Assembly: GCF_001462205.1 (NCBI RefSeq)
Contig: NZ_LKIR01000070.1
Span: 1-32,710, forward strand
Length of the DNA stretch: 32,710 bases
DNA from: Haloparvum sedimenti
GTDB lineage: Archaea; Halobacteriota; Halobacteria; Halobacteriales; Haloferacaceae
Direction of reading: 5' to 3'
In this document: one piece after another, positions 8,694-16,442 of the stretch
Layout: each line of letters opens with the position of its first letter
Numbering within the stretch: the stretch's first letter is position 1
Notes under the pieces: model-generated
What the model was told of the DNA's origin: nothing
Seen by the model: the letters and a program-made list of their open reading frames with translations, nothing else
The model's database searches: none
Position numbers and translations under genes: made by a program

Positions 8694-8790
8694 GAAGCCG
8701 AGGGACGGCCCAGTGAAGGTGCCGGGAGCCGGCGCTCGGTGAACCCCACGCGCGACGCGGGGAGCACTCGCGCGACCGGCGCTCCATACT

Positions 8791-8800
8791 CTATATATCC
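8791..8800 (+). promoter_or_regulatory. Distal AT-rich box upstream of pstS
   Basis: CTATATATCC lies about 120 bp before pstS in the 220-bp menD-pstS spacer. It looks like a core promoter and could give a second, leadered pstS transcript in addition to the proximal one. No gene starts at the right distance from it on either strand. Confidence 0.3.
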
Positions 8801-8869
8801 GACAGTACCGATACCACAGGCTCCGAGGCGCTACCGTCGGGTCATGGTCGCTCCGTTTCGGTCCAGTCA

Positions 8870-8893
8870 CCTATTATAAACGTGTTTAATAGG
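8870..8893 (+). promoter_or_regulatory. Near-palindromic operator/promoter of the pst operon
   Basis: This 24-bp AT-rich element runs from CCTATTA to TTAATAGG. Ten of twelve positions in each half pair with the other half, and the centre is ACGT. It contains two TATA-like cores, TTATAAA at 8874-8880 and TTTAAT at 8885-8890. The second is about 26 bp before the pstS ATG and would give a leaderless mRNA. A palindrome that covers the TATA box is well placed for a dimeric repressor or activator responding to phosphate. The AbrB-domain PhoU protein at the end of the operon is a candidate ligand; that link is inference. Confidence 0.55.
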
Positions 8894-8913
8894 TCGACGG
8901 GTGCTCTTACTCG

Positions 8914-10107
8914 ATGTCACGTGACGCGGCGCATCAGGTGGACACGGTATCACGTCGAAAGTACCTGCTGACGCTCACCGCCGCCGGGGCGACCGGTCTC
9001 GCGGGATGTAGCGGGCAGAGCAACAGCGGCGGCGGCGAGAGCGGGACCAGCAGTGGCGGGAGCGGCGGCGGGAGCGGAAACGGCGACGACGCCGACGAGG
9101 GAGGGAGCGGCGGGTCGTCGGCGCCGGCCACGGTGACCGCCGAGGGGTCCTCGACGGTGTACCCCATCTCGAACAAGGGGAGCTCTTACTGGAACTCCAA
9201 CTCGCCGGCGAGTGACGGCGAGTACTGGGGGTCCAACGACGAGTCGTCGGTCGCCGGGTGGGACCAGATCGACACTGACCAGAACATCGCCGACTACTTC
9301 GCCGGGCTGTACGGCTTCGAGCCGACCGGCGAGCGGTCGAACCCGCCCTTTGCTACCCGCGTGGCACTGAGCCACTCGGGGACCGGCTGTGAGGCGGTCC
9401 GTGACGGACTGGTCGACATCGGGAACTCCTCGGGACCGATCACGGCGGAACTCGACATCAGCGAGGAGCAGCGCGACGAGAACTACGTCGACCACGTGGT
9501 CGGCCGGGACGGGCAGCCCGTCTTCGTCAGTCAGGCCATCTACGACGCGGGAGTCGAACAGCTCACCGGCGAGCAGATCCGCGGCATCTATCAGGGCGAC
9601 ATCACCAACTGGAGCGAGGTCGGCGGCCCCGATCAGGAGATCTACGTGGTCGGTCGCGCCGAGGGGTCCGGGACGGACACCTCGTTCCGGCTGAACATGC
9701 TCGGCGACGCCGACGCGCCGATGGATGTCGACACGCGCTTGGGACAGAACCAGCAGGTCCAGCAGGTCCTCCAGGACAACGACAACGCCATCGGGTACAT
9801 GGCGCTGGCGTTCTCGGGATCGGGGATCCAGGCGATCGCGATCGACTTCGAGGGTACCGTCTTCCGCCCCGACCCCGACGCCGAGAACACCATCTTCGAT
9901 TCCGAGTACCCGCTGAACCGGGACCTGCACATGTACACCCGGATCAACGAGGAGACGCCCGACGGGACGGACATGCGCGAGGCCGCGTTCCTCAACATGT
10001 TCCTGACCGAATTCGGTCAGAAGACGTTCGTCGAGGACGTCAACTACATCACGCTGCCGACGTCCGACATCGAGGCGGAGCGCGAGAAACTCCCCGACCA
10101 GGCCTAG
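8914..10107 (+). CDS. pstS: Phosphate ABC transporter substrate-binding lipoprotein PstS
   Basis: The protein has 397 residues. The N-terminus holds a twin-arginine signal (SRRKYLL), a hydrophobic stretch and a LAGC lipobox (Cys about residue 33), so it is exported folded and lipid-anchored. A Gly/Ser/Asp linker of roughly 35 residues follows, then the phosphate-binding domain. That domain has TAEGSSTVYPIS, a DIGNSSGPIT motif, EGSGTDTSFR (the PstS phosphate-contact loop) and NAIGYMALAF. It captures phosphate outside the membrane and hands it to PstC/PstA. It is the first gene of the operon, with a dedicated promoter palindrome. A 43-bp spacer separates it from pstC. Confidence 0.95.
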   Translation: MSRDAAHQVDTVSRRKYLLTLTAAGATGLAGCSGQSNSGGGESGTSSGGSGGGSGNGDDADEGGSGGSSAPATVTAEGSSTVYPISNKGSSYWNSNSPASDGEYWGSNDESSVAGWDQIDTDQNIADYFAGLYGFEPTGERSNPPFATRVALSHSGTGCEAVRDGLVDIGNSSGPITAELDISEEQRDENYVDHVVGRDGQPVFVSQAIYDAGVEQLTGEQIRGIYQGDITNWSEVGGPDQEIYVVGRAEGSGTDTSFRLNMLGDADAPMDVDTRLGQNQQVQQVLQDNDNAIGYMALAFSGSGIQAIAIDFEGTVFRPDPDAENTIFDSEYPLNRDLHMYTRINEETPDGTDMREAAFLNMFLTEFGQKTFVEDVNYITLPTSDIEAEREKLPDQA

Positions 10108-10150: not shown

Positions 10151-11278
10151 ATGTCACTCACTAACACAACCACCGACTGGCGTGCGGGCATCGAGCGGCG
10201 GTTGACCCGGACACGGGAGTTCCTCGACGAGACCGACCCGGAGGCGTTGACCGTGGTCACCGTTTCGATGGGCTCGCTTCTGGCGGCGTTCCTCGGGTTC
10301 CTGCTTGCATCCCCGTGGGCGGCCGTCCCGTTCGGCGCGTTCCTGACAGCCACCGGCTACGGATGGGCGCGTCATCAGGCACTCATCGCCCGCGCGGTAA
10401 CCCTCGCGATGACGACGGTGACGCTCGTCACGCTCGGGCTCATCGTGGTGTTCATCTTCGCCGAATCGATTCCCGCGTTTCGGTACGAGACGGCGAGCGC
10501 CTTCGGTATCTCCGTGCCGGGGCTTGGGATGTTCGCACAGCCCCGATGGGACGCCGTTTCGGAGCCCGTTCGCTATTCGCTTCTCCCGATGATCCACGGG
10601 ACAGTGATGGTGACGACCATCGCGACGCTCGTGGCGGCCCCGCTCGGGGTCGCCGCGGCGCTGTTCATCGCAGAGATCGCCCCGCCGACCGTTCGCGAGC
10701 TCGTCAAGCCGGGGATCGAGGTGCTGGCGGGCATCCCCTCGATCGTCTACGGGTTCATCGGCTTCACCGTCATCAACCCGTGGGCGAGCGGGGCGTTCGA
10801 CCTCAACGGCGGCTCGACGTACCTGTTCGTCGGAATCGTCGTCGGGCTGATGGCGTTGCCGACCGTCGTCTCCGTCGCCGAGGACGCGCTGACGAGCGTT
10901 CCGGACGTGATGAAACACGGGTCGCTCGCGCTCGGGGCGACCGACTGGCAGTCGATGACCTCGATCACGTTACCCGCCGCCTTCTCGGGCGTCTCGGCGG
11001 CCGTGCTCCTCGGCGTCGGGCGAGCCATCGGTGAGACGATGGCCGCAACGGTGATGCTGGCCGGCATTCCGCGGATCAGCGAACCGCTCGTGAACGTCTT
11101 TTACGGCTACGAGACGCTCACCTCGCTCATCGCACGCGGCTACGGCAGCGCGAACGGCGTCCACGAGAGCGCGCTGTTCGCCGCCGGCGTCGTCCTGTTC
11201 GTGACCGTGTTGTGCCTGAGCATCGGTTCACAGTACATCGAGGCGCGAATGCGTCGGCGTCTCGGGGGTGCCGAATGA
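10151..11278 (+). CDS. pstC: Phosphate ABC transporter permease PstC
   Basis: The protein has 375 residues with about seven hydrophobic segments. Two N-terminal helices lie before the core permease domain. The permease EAA-type coupling loop is seen at about residues 250-300 (ALGATDWQSMTSITLPAAFSG followed by GVGRAIGETMAATVM), with the PstC-typical AIGETMA motif. Its TGA stop overlaps the pstA ATG in an ATGA, so translation is coupled. It forms the membrane channel with PstA. Confidence 0.93.
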   Translation: MSLTNTTTDWRAGIERRLTRTREFLDETDPEALTVVTVSMGSLLAAFLGFLLASPWAAVPFGAFLTATGYGWARHQALIARAVTLAMTTVTLVTLGLIVVFIFAESIPAFRYETASAFGISVPGLGMFAQPRWDAVSEPVRYSLLPMIHGTVMVTTIATLVAAPLGVAAALFIAEIAPPTVRELVKPGIEVLAGIPSIVYGFIGFTVINPWASGAFDLNGGSTYLFVGIVVGLMALPTVVSVAEDALTSVPDVMKHGSLALGATDWQSMTSITLPAAFSGVSAAVLLGVGRAIGETMAATVMLAGIPRISEPLVNVFYGYETLTSLIARGYGSANGVHESALFAAGVVLFVTVLCLSIGSQYIEARMRRRLGGAE

Positions 11279-12843
11279 GTCGCGCCACCCGGACCGCGCT
11301 CGTCCGGGACGACCGCACGGCCTACGAGGCCGCTGCCGGGGCTGCGGTCGGTATCTCCGGAATCGTATTCGTGGTCGGCCTCGCGACGCTACTCGGCGTC
11401 GTCGGGATCGACGATCCCGTCGCTGGACTCGAGCTATCGGTGCTGTTCGGCGTGGTGCTGCTCGCGCTCGGGGTGACGGTCGTCGGCTTCGGGATGGCCT
11501 CGCGGCTGGGATACGTCGACGCGGCGCCCCAACCGAGCGCGGGGATCGTCGCCGCGGCCGCGTTCACGGGGATCTGGTTCGCAGTGGGCGCGGCCGTGTC
11601 CGGAGCGGCGGGGATCGGAACGGCCGGTCGGCTCGCTGTCGGCGCGGTCCTCGGCGGGAGCGCGTTCGCGGTGACCGCGTTCCCTCGCGAAGATGTCGGG
11701 TCGACGGTACCCGTGGGGGCCGTCGCCGGTCTGTGTGGACTGTCACTCGTTGTCGGCGTCATCGGCCCCGGGTGGGAGCAGGCGCTCGTCGGGTACAACG
11801 CGACCCTGTTCGGCGACACCGTCGTTCCCGTGGTCGTGCTGTTCACCTCGCTAGTGACCGGATGGAGCGCCGCGAAAGCGTACGGCGGGTTCGGTGCTCG
11901 CGGACGGAACGTCGGCGCGTACGTGCTCATCTACCTCGTCGTCGGTTCGATACTGACGGTGCTCGTCGGGCTCGTCGCCTTCGTCACAGTGAGGGGACTC
12001 CCGGGGCTGTTCGGCGGGTTCTCCGTCGGAGGCGCCAGCCTCGTTAGCTGGCCGTTCCTGACCAACGGTGCCGGCCTGACGGCCGACGTTGCCGGCGTGT
12101 TCCCCGCCCTCCTCGGGACGGTCTGGCTGGTCATCGGGGCGGTCCTCTTCGCCGTCCCGACCGGGGTCGGCGCGGCCGTGTTCCTCAGCGAATACGCCGA
12201 ACAGGGCCGGTTCACGGGAGCCGTCGAGGTGGCGACCAACGGCCTCTGGAGCACGCCGAGCATCGTGTTCGGCCTGTTCGGTGCCGCCTTCCTGATCCCC
12301 CGTTTCGGGAACCAGAAATCGCTGATAGCCGGGATGTTGACGCTCGGGTTCATGCTGCTGCCGCTCGTCCTGATCACGAGCCGCGAGGCGATCCTCGCGG
12401 TTCCGGACGAGTACCGGGACGCCAGCGCGGCCCTCGGCGTCTCCAAGTGGAAGACGATCCGCAGCGTCGTTCTCCCCGCAGCAATCCCGGGGATCGCGAC
12501 GGGCGTCATCCTCGGCGTGGGCCGCATCGCCGGCGAAACCGCGCCCATCCTGCTGACCATGGGCGGTGGCGTCCTCCCGGGGAAATCGGCCGCTCCCGAC
12601 GTATTGGGCGGCTTCCAGCTGAGCGGCTCGCCACCGTTCGTCAGCAATCCGGCGCTGTTGGAGGCCACGAGCGCGCTCCCCTATCAGCTGTACGCGCTCA
12701 TCACGGCGGGGCTGAGCGGCAACATCGAGAACCCGCAGGAATTCGCGTGGGGACTTGCACTGACGCTGCTGCTCGTCGTGTTGGTCTTCTACGCGGTCGG
12801 CATCGCGACGCGCTACTACTTCAGACGGAAACTCCACCAATGA
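11275..12843 (+). CDS. pstA: Phosphate ABC transporter permease PstA (long form)
   Basis: The protein has 522 residues, well above the roughly 280-300 of bacterial PstA. The N-terminal half (about 1-220) adds several extra membrane helices rich in Gly, Ala and Val. The conserved permease part follows, with the EAA loop at about residues 377-425 ([25 protein letters not shown], then [13 protein letters not shown]). The ATG at 11275 overlaps the pstC stop; a longer in-frame start inside pstC was rejected. Its own TGA overlaps the pstB ATG by 4 bp. The role of the N-terminal extension is unknown; I believe it is shared by other haloarchaeal PstA proteins, but cannot verify this here. Confidence 0.92.
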
Positions 12844-13754
12844 GTCAAACAGACACCGCAGAGACCACGGCGAACCGCACTGACGGCGAAGGGGTCTCCA
12901 CGACCGCCGGCGAAACCGTCGAGGAGACGCGTCCCGAGTGGACGTGTCACGAGACCGACGGAGAGACGAAACTTGCCGTCGGCGACCTCGACGTCCACTA
13001 CGGGGACGACCACGCGCTGAAGGGCGTCTCCATGGATATTCCCGAAGAGAGCGTGACGGCGCTCATCGGTCCGTCCGGCTGTGGAAAGTCGACCTTCCTC
13101 CGGTGTCTCAACCGGATGAACGACCGTATCCGTGCCGCCAGTGTCGACGGAACGGTCGAGTTCGACGGCGAGAACATCTATCAAGACGGCGTCGACCTCG
13201 TCGAGCTGCGCAAGCGCGTCGGGATGGTGTTCCAGAGCCCGAATCCCTTCCCCAAGTCGATCCGCGAGAACGTCTCCTACGGACCGCGGAAACACGGCGA
13301 CATCGAGACGGGACTGCTCGCACGGCTGACCGGCCGCGCGGAGCCCGACCGCGAGGAGGACCTCGTGAAGCGGTCGCTCGAACGGGCCGCGCTCTGGGAG
13401 GAGGTGCGGGACCGCCTGGACGACAACGCGCTCGGGCTCTCGGGCGGCCAGCAACAGCGGCTGTGTATCGCCCGGTGTCTGGCCGTCGATCCGGAGGTCA
13501 TCCTGATGGACGAGCCGGCCTCCGCGCTGGACCCGATCGCCACCGCGAAGATCGAGGACCTCATCGAGGACCTCGCGGAGGACTACACCGTCGTCGTCGT
13601 CACCCACAGCATGCAGCAGGCAGCCCGCGTCTCGGACCAGACTGCCGTCTTCCTGACGGGAGGCGAACTCGTCGAGTACGACGACACCCAGAAGATCTTC
13701 GAGGACCCGGAAAGCCAGCGCGTCGAGGACTACATCAGCGGCAAGTTCGGGTGA
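12840..13754 (+). CDS. pstB: Phosphate ABC transporter ATP-binding protein PstB
   Basis: The protein has 304 residues. An N-terminal acidic, Thr-rich extension of about 45 residues precedes the ATPase. Walker A is GPSGCGKST (about 77-85), the Q-loop is [12 protein letters not shown], the signature is [13 protein letters not shown] and Walker B is [13 protein letters not shown]. The switch His is in [15 protein letters not shown]. The CLNRMND segment after Walker A is typical of PstB. It powers phosphate import with PstC and PstA. The start overlaps the pstA stop (ATGA) and its stop overlaps the phoU GTG (GTGA). Confidence 0.96.
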
Positions 13755-14428
13755 TCGCCGTGGCTCGTGACGACTACCGCGAGTCGCTGGACACGCTGCG
13801 TTCCGATGTCGGGTCCATGGCCGCAGCCGTGCTCGAACAGCTCCGACGGGCGCTCGCAGCGCTCGACGCCGACGACCACGCGTCCGCACGTGAGGTGATC
13901 GACGCCGACGAGTCGATCAATCGACGATACCTCGACCTTGAGGGCGACTGCATCGACCTCTTCGCGCTGCAACAGCCCGTCGCCTCGGACTTGCGGTTTA
14001 TCGCGGCGTCGTTCAAGATCCTGACCGACCTGGAGCGTGTCGGTGACCTCGCCACGAACCTCGCACGCTACGCACTGGCGGACGGTCCGGAAGTCGTCAC
14101 GGACGTTCGCGTCCACCAGATCGGAGAGACCGCCGCCGACCAGGTCGAAGCGGCCATCGACGCGTACGTCGAGGGCGACGGCGAGGCGTGTCGAGCGATC
14201 GCCGAGCGCGACGACGAACTGGACGCGCTGTGTCAACACGCCAGCGAGGCGGTCGTCCGCGAACTGGTCGCCGGCGAGCCGGACCGCTGGGAGATCGAAC
14301 GGCTTCTCGACGGGATCTCGAACCTGCTCCTGACGATCCGCGACCTCGAGCGGGTCGGCGACCACGCCGTCAACATCGCCGCGCGGACGCTGTACGCGAC
14401 CGACAGTGACCCTGAGCTGATCTACTGA
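13751..14428 (+). CDS. phoU: Phosphate signalling complex protein PhoU
   Basis: The protein has 225 residues. I place the start at the GTG at 13751, which overlaps the pstB stop by 4 bp, matching the overlaps of the preceding genes; an in-frame GTG three codons later is the alternative. The sequence forms two copies of a three-helix PhoU repeat. The first has [23 protein letters not shown] and the second [18 protein letters not shown]. Each carries the E/D-R-V-G-D metal-binding signature. PhoU restrains Pst activity and links it to phosphate signalling. It is followed two bases later by a second PhoU-type gene. Confidence 0.94.
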
Positions 14429-14430
14429 CC

Positions 14431-15453
14431 ATGGAGACGAGAAAGCTCCAAGAGGTCGGCGGCGGGACGTTCACCGTGTCCATCCCCAAGGGGTGGGCGA
14501 CGAACCACGGGCTCGAGGAGGGGATGGAACTCCGGCTGTACACCCACCACGACGGGTCGCTCCTCGTCAGGTCCACCGAGGCGGACCTCGGATGTCTGAC
14601 CGAAGCAACTGTCACGGTCGACGGTGGCGGGGGCGACGCCGTCCGACAGGCGGTCCGAGCCGCTCACGCCGCCGGGTTCGAGACGATAACGCTCCGCGCG
14701 ACCGAGTCGTTCACCGACGCGGAGCGCAGGGCGGCGCAGGCGACGGTGCGCGAGCTCGTCGGAACGGACATCGCCGTCGAGTCGGAGACGGAGATCACGG
14801 TCAGACACCTGTTGGACGCGTCGTCCGTCTCCGTACGCCAGTCGATCGTTCAGCTCCAGTACGTGGCCGTCTCGCTCCACGGCTGCGCAGTCGCCGCGTT
14901 CCTCGAGGGGGACGCCGGCGCGCACGCGAGGGTCCGAGACCGAGCCGACGAGGCCCGGCGGTCGGCGGAGATGATCGGGCGACACTTCTCGCGGTCGCTC
15001 GTCTCACAAACCGAGCTGGACGTGTTGGACGTGTCACGCCCCGAGCTGTTCGGCTACTACGTGGCTGCCGAGCGCCTCGAAACCGTCGTCGACCGAACCG
15101 TCCGGATCGCGGGCGTCGCGGAGAGGCTGTCCCGCCCCGTCCCCGAGAGCGTCGCCGGGGAGGTCCGACCCGCGGCGGACAGCGTCGGAAACGCGGTCGA
15201 CGACGCCGTGACCGCGCTCCTCGACGGCGACATGGCGAAGGCACGGTCGGCGCGCGAGCGCTGTGAGGAGGCGGCGGCGCGGCTCGACGGCGTCGAACGA
15301 AGTCTGTACGAGGGGGAGAACGTGGAGTCGGTTCCGATGGCGGTGGCGCTGTCCAGCACGCTTGACCACCTCCGGCGGACGGCCGCCTGCGGTCGTGCCG
15401 TCACAGATACCGCCGTGCGGGCCACGATTCGCGCCGAGAACCGCGACATCTAA
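14431..15453 (+). CDS. AbrB/SpoVT-domain PhoU family regulator
   Basis: The protein has 340 residues. Residues 1-48 form a swapped-hairpin AbrB-type DNA-binding domain (METRKLQEVGGGTFTVSIPKGWATNHGLEEG). The remainder is helical with PhoU-like segments (about 120-330), although the metal-binding E-R-V-G-D signature of true PhoU is largely lost. Such fusions occur with archaeal pst operons and are assumed to regulate transcription in response to phosphate. It starts two bases after phoU, so it is the last gene of the operon, and it converges with the next gene 17 bp away. A target at the pstS palindrome (8870-8893) is inference. Confidence 0.87.
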   Translation: METRKLQEVGGGTFTVSIPKGWATNHGLEEGMELRLYTHHDGSLLVRSTEADLGCLTEATVTVDGGGGDAVRQAVRAAHAAGFETITLRATESFTDAERRAAQATVRELVGTDIAVESETEITVRHLLDASSVSVRQSIVQLQYVAVSLHGCAVAAFLEGDAGAHARVRDRADEARRSAEMIGRHFSRSLVSQTELDVLDVSRPELFGYYVAAERLETVVDRTVRIAGVAERLSRPVPESVAGEVRPAADSVGNAVDDAVTALLDGDMAKARSARERCEEAAARLDGVERSLYEGENVESVPMAVALSSTLDHLRRTAACGRAVTDTAVRATIRAENRDI

Positions 15454-15470: not shown

Positions 15471-16442
15471 CTACGCGAGGTCGGGGCGGTGCTCATCGAC
15501 CACCGCCTCCACGTCCGCCCAGTCGATCGGCGGCTCCATCCCCCCGAGCGCCCTCTCGACCGCCGTCAACCGGTCGTCGAACCGCTCGGTCCACGCCGGA
15601 TCGGCGCGGTCGGCGAGCCGGTTCCCGGCGGTCTCGTGGCGCGCCGCGAGGTCGTCGATCCGTGGGTCGACGTTCGACGGCGGGTCGATCCCCTCGCGCT
15701 CGGCCCACGTCCGAAGCGCCGACAGCTCCGCCCGAAGGTCGGCGATCATCAGCGACAGGACGCGGTGGCGGATCGTCGCCGCGGCCCATCGTCGTGCCGC
15801 CGCGTCTCCGCCGTCCTCCTCGGTCGCGGCCGGGATGTCCGAGACGGTCGCGTCGAGGCCGTCCAGCGCGTCCGCGACCGCGTCCACGTCGTCCGCGAGG
15901 TCCGCTTCGCGCCGGTCGGCGTCCGCGAGCCACTCCCGGAACGAGTCGAGCTCGAGTTGCAGGTCGTCGGCGACGCGCTGTGTCTCCCTCGCAGCGTCCG
16001 TCACCTCCCGGATCCGGCGCGCGACCCGGTAGAGGTCGCCGTCGTCCTTGCGTTCGAGGATTGCCTGTACGTCGTCGCCGAGAGCCTCCGCTCGGTCCTC
16101 GATGGCGTCGAGCCGCGCCGCGAAGCCGTCGACTCGCGACGAGACGGGGGGCAGGTCCAGCACGGGGTCGGCGTCCTCGCGTGCCTCGGACAGCTTCCGA
16201 GCCGCGAGCTCCGTCCGCGTCTCGGCGGTCGTCACCACCTTCGAGGCGTTCGCGAGCGCGTCGTCGACCGCGGCTCGGCGGACGGTGCCGTCGCTGGCGA
16301 CGATGGCGAGCGTCTCGCGCACCCGACCAGGGTCGGTCCGTTCGTCGTCGACCGCATCGACCGCCGCGTCGACGGACAGACCGTCGAGGTCGCCGTGTCC
16401 GTCGCCGCGCGTCCCACGCCCGTCTCCGCGGTCCTGACTCAT
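15471..16442 (-). CDS. Haloarchaeal coiled-coil protein of unknown function
   Basis: The protein has 323 residues and is very acidic, with no signal peptide and no membrane segment. It is largely helical with heptad-like stretches (about residues 90-190, rich in Leu, Asp, Arg and Ala), suggesting an elongated coiled coil. Similar haloarchaeal proteins are, as I recall, often labelled 'halo transducer protein' without experimental support, and I see no HAMP or methyl-accepting motif that would justify the name. The minus-strand ATG at 16442 lacks a clear upstream promoter box. It converges with the pst operon. Confidence 0.7.
   Translation of the reverse strand: MSQDRGDGRGTRGDGHGDLDGLSVDAAVDAVDDERTDPGRVRETLAIVASDGTVRRAAVDDALANASKVVTTAETRTELAARKLSEAREDADPVLDLPPVSSRVDGFAARLDAIEDRAEALGDDVQAILERKDDGDLYRVARRIREVTDAARETQRVADDLQLELDSFREWLADADRREADLADDVDAVADALDGLDATVSDIPAATEEDGGDAAARRWAAATIRHRVLSLMIADLRAELSALRTWAEREGIDPPSNVDPRIDDLAARHETAGNRLADRADPAWTERFDDRLTAVERALGGMEPPIDWADVEAVVDEHRPDLA

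Follow-up and report, generated by a model that had tools for sequence, protein, structure and literature searches.

Control of pst operons by phosphate (Pi) is the role of PhoR/PhoB, a two-component phosphorelay, and bacterial PhoU, which has no DNA-binding domain, contacts PstB and works through PstB and PhoR. For haloarchaea, the literature available treats proteins that join an AbrB to a PhoU domain as predicted regulators of phosphate uptake. The general idea that such AbrB-PhoU proteins regulate pst is already in print: in the accessible part of PMC6267482, HVO_2374 (PhoU2) of Haloferax volcanii is, on grounds like those used here, a predicted transcriptional regulator of Pi uptake. The available portions of further papers state that PhoU transcription factors are conserved in haloarchaea and that the pho-boxes of H. 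salinarum are essential for upregulation (PMC6560208, for the latter citing Furtwangler 2010), include a mutant in phoU with those in transcription factors of H. salinarum (PMC5605881), and count PhoU-like proteins among the transcription factors of P. furiosus (PMC6316755). H. salinarum is described as having two Pst systems, one constitutive and the other starvation-induced (PMC4996455); the constitutive one may count against the regulator reading pursued here. Within the accessible parts of the literature searched, no paper was recognized in which the action of an AbrB-PhoU protein on a pst promoter was tested by experiment, and the operon-terminal clade, the box, and the co-variation described below were not found.

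Like HVO_2374 and the B-type proteins defined below, the 340-residue protein encoded at positions 14431 to 15453 of the window, i.e., the whole 32,710-nucleotide stretch of Haloparvum sedimenti DNA that was analyzed, combines a DNA-binding domain with a PhoU domain and lies beside a pst operon (PMC6267482, accessible part). HVO_2374 would itself be a B type, given the synteny reported for it and the pst1 operon. Unlike the window protein, the B types lie mostly in divergent orientation to pstS, show higher conservation, retain the acidic residues of the motif (all 72 sequences of the core group), and go with a different promoter box. The operon of H. salinarum DSM 3754 (L219) resembles that of the window, with a clade-A protein at its end and TATTATAAAC in its promoter. 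The PhoU part of the window protein has the six-helix fold of bacterial PhoU (1t72, 4q25), and the protein would fill the role of PhoR/PhoB as a single polypeptide, a design without a phosphorelay.

Operon layout and domain architecture

Six genes from pstS to the AbrB-PhoU gene lie on the plus strand, the ATG of the last being located 2 nt past the phoU stop codon. The genes and the domains of the terminal protein are as follows:

8914 to 10107, plus strand: pstS, substrate-binding lipoprotein (TIGR02136, 150.9 bits, below the cut-off of 206.6; operon position)
10151 to 11278, plus strand: pstC (TIGR02138, above cut-off)
11275 to 12843, plus strand: pstA (TIGR00974, above cut-off; start inferred from the ATGA overlap, 11281 being used in the analyses)
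12846 to 13754, plus strand: pstB (TIGR00972, above cut-off)
13760 to 14428, plus strand: canonical phoU with GTG start (TIGR02135, 161.5 bits; cut-off, 130.25)
14431 to 15453, plus strand: AbrB-middle α/β-PhoU gene, 340 residues, operon-terminal clade A (Pfam, tree, model)
14431 to 14574, plus strand: predicted AbrB/MazE-type DNA-binding domain, residues 1 to 48
14593 to 14814, plus strand: middle domain with Alba/IF3-C-like fold, residues 55 to 128
14815 to 15438, plus strand: PhoU-like six-helix domain, residues 129 to 336

An AbrB-PhoU fusion directly 3′ of a true phoU, as described in the original prediction, was confirmed by Pfam matches to both domains and by the TIGR02135 score of the upstream gene. 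Specifically, PF04014 (MazE/AbrB) matches residues 10 to 48 with 26.1 bits (gathering cut-off, 24.7), and PF01895 (PhoU) matches the protein weakly, with 26.0 bits, but above its gathering cut-off of 23.5. With 24.3 bits against the TIGR02135 cut-off, the protein lies outside the canonical PhoU equivalog. Among 45 aligned sequences including that of the window, matches at E 0.01 were obtained for PF04014 in 44 and for PF01895 in 38, and residues R4, Q7, T13, V16, S17, P19, and W22 of the AbrB domain are invariant. The profile of these sequences found A. aeolicus PhoU in the PDB with an E value of 3e-12, an AbrB protein only with 0.38. Domains, fold, and conservation exclude a chance or artefactual open reading frame at 14431 to 15453. 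The eight best named relatives, in a list that may omit the genome itself, are all from Halorubrum (61 to 69% identity), and three more Halorubrum loci match at 34 to 51%. A convergent open reading frame for 323 amino acids (15471 to 16442, minus strand) follows directly downstream.

The AlphaFold2 model of the monomer reached a pLDDT of 89.3 and features six helices within residues 135 to 337. P. aeruginosa PhoU (4q25) aligns to residues 129 to 335 of the model (Z 24.5; 2.9 Å over 203 residues), and A. aeolicus PhoU (1t72) to the range 36 to 335 (Z 24.7; 2.9 Å over 209 residues), which places this part in the PhoU family by fold. The N-terminal hairpin region is less confident, with pLDDT block means of 63 to 74 for residues 1 to 50, as would be expected for a swapped dimer modeled as a monomer; given this low-confidence N terminus, the absence of an AbrB fold among the 50 matches listed per fold search carries no weight. 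Between the two parts the model contains a domain overlooked in the original prediction, with the topology β-α-β-α-β-β (residues 55 to 128). Its best fold match is Alba of P. horikoshii (Z 9.3; 2.3 Å over 70 residues), but since TsuB and SepF score nearly as high (Z 8.1 to 8.6), we call it Alba/IF3-C-like only; judging from the model, it is possibly a second nucleic-acid interface or a dimer interface. The architecture of AbrB plus PhoU together with the linkage to pst is that of the haloarchaeal predicted pst regulators.

AbrB-PhoU clades and the metal motif

Each of the 60 genomes searched, that of the window included, yielded at least one AbrB-PhoU match. Part of these matches, without most of the C types, was fetched, and 100 proteins were used for a maximum-likelihood tree, leaving aside L141 (in two pieces) and L131. 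Clade A comprises 20 rows (support 95/89), every one of them encoded by the last gene of a pst operon; the B rows are for the most part oriented divergently to pstS, and 10 C rows are separate. The window protein groups in clade A (95/89) and not with the divergent B types. With named genomes added, clade A grows to 81 distinct members, at a FastTree support of only 0.64. The genome itself (G000) encodes all three types: A in the window, B on C31, and C on C32. The B-type protein, 30% identical to that of the window, is encoded divergently from a pstB-phoU pair, and the C-type gene (L043, 8954 to 10363) has no pst gene within 19.5 kb around it. This third type (L043 and its relatives L132 to L140) likewise lacks pst genes nearby, as does a small clade near A (L053, L058, L063, and L065) in the stretches read; in one genome of the latter, G005, pstS lies elsewhere with an A-like box.

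In canonical PhoU, the metal motif E(D)xxxD is present in both repeats. The window protein keeps it in repeat 1 (E217/D221) and has lost it in repeat 2, where A319 stands in place of the D of B-type relatives; the earlier statement that the metal signature is mostly lost holds for repeat 2, but not for the intact repeat 1. The acidic pair of repeat 1 occurs in 51 of the 81 clade-A sequences and all three acidic positions in 39, compared with 72/72 in the B core group and 16/21 in a more divergent B group. As far as the alignment tells, erosion of the motif is a trend of clade A, not a peculiarity of the window protein, in which it is partial.

Directly upstream of the 81 clade-A genes lies phoU in 38 cases and pstB, with no phoU detected between, in 43. 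The proposed division of labor, one PhoU acting on the transporter and the other on transcription, is weakened, because those 43 genes have no phoU detected before them. The AbrB domain might conceivably serve only to oligomerize the protein, which would act on PstB or the transporter like an ordinary PhoU. The position of the gene next to pstB or phoU suits this idea, and in the 43 loci without phoU the protein could replace it. We regard it as quite improbable, since within clade A no other part is conserved as well as the AbrB domain (mean pairwise identity 0.59; middle domain, 0.35; PhoU part, 0.40) and since the co-variation of regulator and box would be left without explanation.

Promoter boxes and their pairing with regulators

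Three elements were recognized upstream of pstS:

8791 to 8799, plus strand: distal CTATATATC box, its TATATA starting 80 nt before the proximal box
8870 to 8893, plus strand: proximal promoter box, an imperfect palindrome with the core TATTATAAAC at 8872 to 8881
8885 to 8888, plus strand: TTTA, probable TATA-box core, 25 nt before the ATG, a near-constant distance across promoters

The palindrome has 10 of 12 pairs matched, a level reached by 36 of 2,000 dinucleotide shuffles of 8694 to 8913. In ten Halorubrum-type and related upstream regions, conservation is 0.81 for 8870 to 8893 and 0.40 for the rest, 8869 to 8892 being the best-conserved 24-mer (0.83); CTATATA near 8791 forms a second conserved block, kept in Halorubrum-type loci. 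The spacing of TTTA, usually 24 to 25 nt before the ATG, suggests that the pstS transcript is leaderless.

Across 127 of 146 pstS genes (19 without an anchored start were set aside), two promoter types were distinguished, A (TATTATAAACnnnTTTA) and B (CTATATAGnnnTMATAGYAGnGTAYTTA). A first classification with a rigid anchor left 30 of the 127 undecided; the revised rule, which was adjusted to the data it classifies, scans a wider window, is more permissive at two positions of the B pattern, and sets the threshold for B at 8 instead of 7 of 9. Under this rule, 1.2% of shuffled promoters score as A and 3.6% as B. Where the pattern was found, and with some genomes repeated as the same record, the distance from the start of the box to the ATG is 42 nt in 55/57 A and 33/43 B promoters, and TATATA occurs at −160 to −55 in 46/60 A promoters (8.8 expected) and 20/57 B promoters (4.7 expected). 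Most B promoters carry TATATA at 10 nt from the proximal box, further distances being about 20, 28 to 30, and 38 to 39 nt; in A promoters, 38 distances do not exceed 130 nt, and 31 of them are 68 to 70, 78 to 80, or 87 to 90 nt. After thinning at 70% identity (46 A and 44 B promoters), phasing at 10 bp was strong, with R values of 0.73 for A and 0.87 for B; these Rayleigh values assume independence, and that for B derives largely from the constant 10-nt distance of the CTATATAG box. The steps of about 10 bp suggest proteins located on one face of the helix; looping of the promoter is speculation.

In the 3.24-Mb genome, the 17-base A pattern has a single exact site, at 8872 to 8888 before pstS, and one further site at two mismatches, the same number as in the control. 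In 119 family genomes, a sample of a larger group, 21 exact sites were counted in 21 genomes (reversed pattern, 2), at most one per genome. Nineteen of these sites lie exactly 42 nt before the pstS ATG and one lies 43 nt before phoX; for the remaining one, no pst or phoX match was found within 1.5 kb on each side. The phoX site belongs to G019 (L238, 2312 to 4499), where the gene encodes a PhoX alkaline phosphatase (PF05787). A generic strong promoter is ruled out by the single genomic site and by the 19 of 21 family sites before pstS. Allowing up to one mismatch in relatives gave 35 sites (9 exact) against 27 for the reversed control, i.e., mostly noise. A near-A box with one mismatch occurs in G007 (L240, minus strand from 2240), with TATATA upstream; a phoU gene follows at about 570 nt, and the 4 kb read around it contain no pst match. 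With up to three mismatches allowed, the B pattern was found at 49 sites in 43 of 60 genomes (control, 3); for 42 of the 49 a B-type gene follows within 2.6 kb, and of the remaining seven, two precede further pstS genes.

The type of box goes with the type of regulator. Among the 127 anchored promoters, in which some genomes are repeated as the same record, operon-only linkage goes with an A box in 61/67 and divergent-only linkage with a B box in 44/48. After removal of duplicates, of loci lacking pstB, and of those in which several promoters belong to the same pstS type, 110 loci remained. In this set, the 56 loci with clade-A regulators have the TATTATAAAC A box in 53 cases, B in 2, and undecided in 1, and the 47 with B regulators have the TMATAGYAG B box in 42, A in 3, and undecided in 2; loci linked to both regulators have a B box in 5 cases and A in 1, and one locus without regulator has A. 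Distinct promoters of named genomes outside the consensus set, scored by the same data-adjusted rule, are A in 39/40 operon-only and B in 3/4 divergent-only cases, and those linked to both regulators are B in six cases and A in one. Strict one-to-one pairing is ruled out by L052 and L066 (A regulator, B box), by L120, L126, and L225 (B regulator, A box), and by G019 and G057.

Transporters of the other lineage follow the same tendency: B-lineage pstS with an A regulator has an A box in 7 of 8 cases, and A-lineage pstS with a B regulator has a B box in 6 of 9, including the sister rows L084 and L094, whose box is mixed (TCATAGAAAC). PstB alone yielded only three supported pairs, too few for a transporter tree, so the analysis was repeated with PstS, PstC, and PstB, by a quick method giving SH-aLRT support only, for the 100 of 110 loci that have a single regulator clade and an assigned box type. 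On this tree, 9 changes of regulator clade and 12 changes of box were counted. In the seven independent, supported pairs with different regulators, the box on average differs concordantly in 6.0, oppositely in 0.0, and is tied in 0.9 (sign test over random pairings, median p 0.031, range 0.016 to 0.22). We read this co-variation, which comprises few independent events, as a probable co-adaptation, although promoter and regulator could also have traveled together with the operon. Such hitch-hiking would have to replace both ends of the operon, since the box is at one and the regulator gene at the other. A search for specificity residues of the AbrB domain by mutual information was rejected, since positions across the whole protein score alike and ancestry thus confounds the signal; residues 8, 9, and 39 are a lead only.

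The boxes might instead be read by another factor, such as a B- or C-type AbrB-PhoU protein or general transcription factors, with the pairing reflecting inheritance of the operon. Several observations agree with this: G057 and G019 have exact A boxes with no clade-A regulator found (the fetched matches are B types and the unfetched ones score C-like), loci with both regulators mostly have a B box (5/6), and in the genome of the window a B-like box precedes the pstS of a separate pstSCA set (C50) with no regulator in the 14 kb around it. The joint change of box and regulator on the transporter tree, from opposite ends of the operon, and the restriction of 19 of 21 exact A sites to pstS, which does not fit a generic promoter, argue against it, and we consider it improbable. 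Regulation of its own operon by the window protein through 8870 to 8893, as originally predicted, gains comparative support, short of proof, from the co-variation of box and regulator, transporters of the other lineage included, from the near-exclusive location of the exact pattern before pstS, and from the top conservation of 8869 to 8892.

Candidate mechanism and further phosphate loci

On sequence grounds, the 340-residue protein is likely to be a one-component AbrB-PhoU transcription factor acting on its own pst operon, a reading that draws on its architecture, fold, clade, and operon position and on the conservation, specificity, and co-variation of the box. Acting as a dimer or larger assembly, the protein would use its AbrB hairpins to bind TATTATAAAC (8872 to 8881) directly, just upstream of the TATA-box core TTTA, and probably also the TATATA box that lies 80 nt, or about 8 helical turns, before it. 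Phosphate status would be read by the PhoU domain, probably by contact with PstB, like that of bacterial PhoU, or else through a bound ligand, and this would set DNA binding. Activation under phosphate starvation is somewhat favored over repression; if the protein is an activator, the position of its gene at the end of the operon would create a feedback loop.

A repressor at the same site, covering BRE/TATA under phosphate sufficiency and leaving upon starvation, would differ from the favored reading in sign and otherwise overlap with it. The palindrome at 8870 to 8893 spans the TTTA element, AbrB-type domains often serve repressors, and bacterial PhoU acts as a negative regulator, all of which would suit such a protein. 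The fixed position of the box at 42 nt and the phased upstream boxes, however, fit activation better, as does the statement, in the accessible part of PMC6560208, that the pho-boxes are essential for upregulation; on balance, we take repression to be rather unlikely.

A broader reading that we put forward tentatively, and with some doubt, is that the paralogues recognize different operators, the operon-terminal type TATTATAAAC and the divergent type TMATAGYAG, both usually 42 nt before a leaderless start, and that their oligomers bridge or loop the promoter via TATATA boxes on the same DNA face, which lie 1 to 4 helical turns upstream in B promoters and mostly 7 to 9 in A promoters. If so, a pst operon that exchanges its regulator would also change its operator. 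A one-component regulator of this kind would represent a design in which the accessory domain of a transporter is fused to a DNA-binding domain; a specific protein, a 17-base pattern, and natural swaps of regulator and box make archaeal phosphate control directly testable.

The genome contains a further set of transporter genes, pst1, which looks split. Genes pstS, pstC, and pstA are located on C50 (L252, 5534 to 9418), where neither pstB nor phoU nor a regulator gene was found in the 14 kb read, and pstB and phoU are located on C31 (L042, 8775 to 11790) next to the divergent B-type AbrB-PhoU gene. Both parts carry a B-type box, that on C31, the single B site of the genome, being positioned between the B-type regulator gene and pstB.
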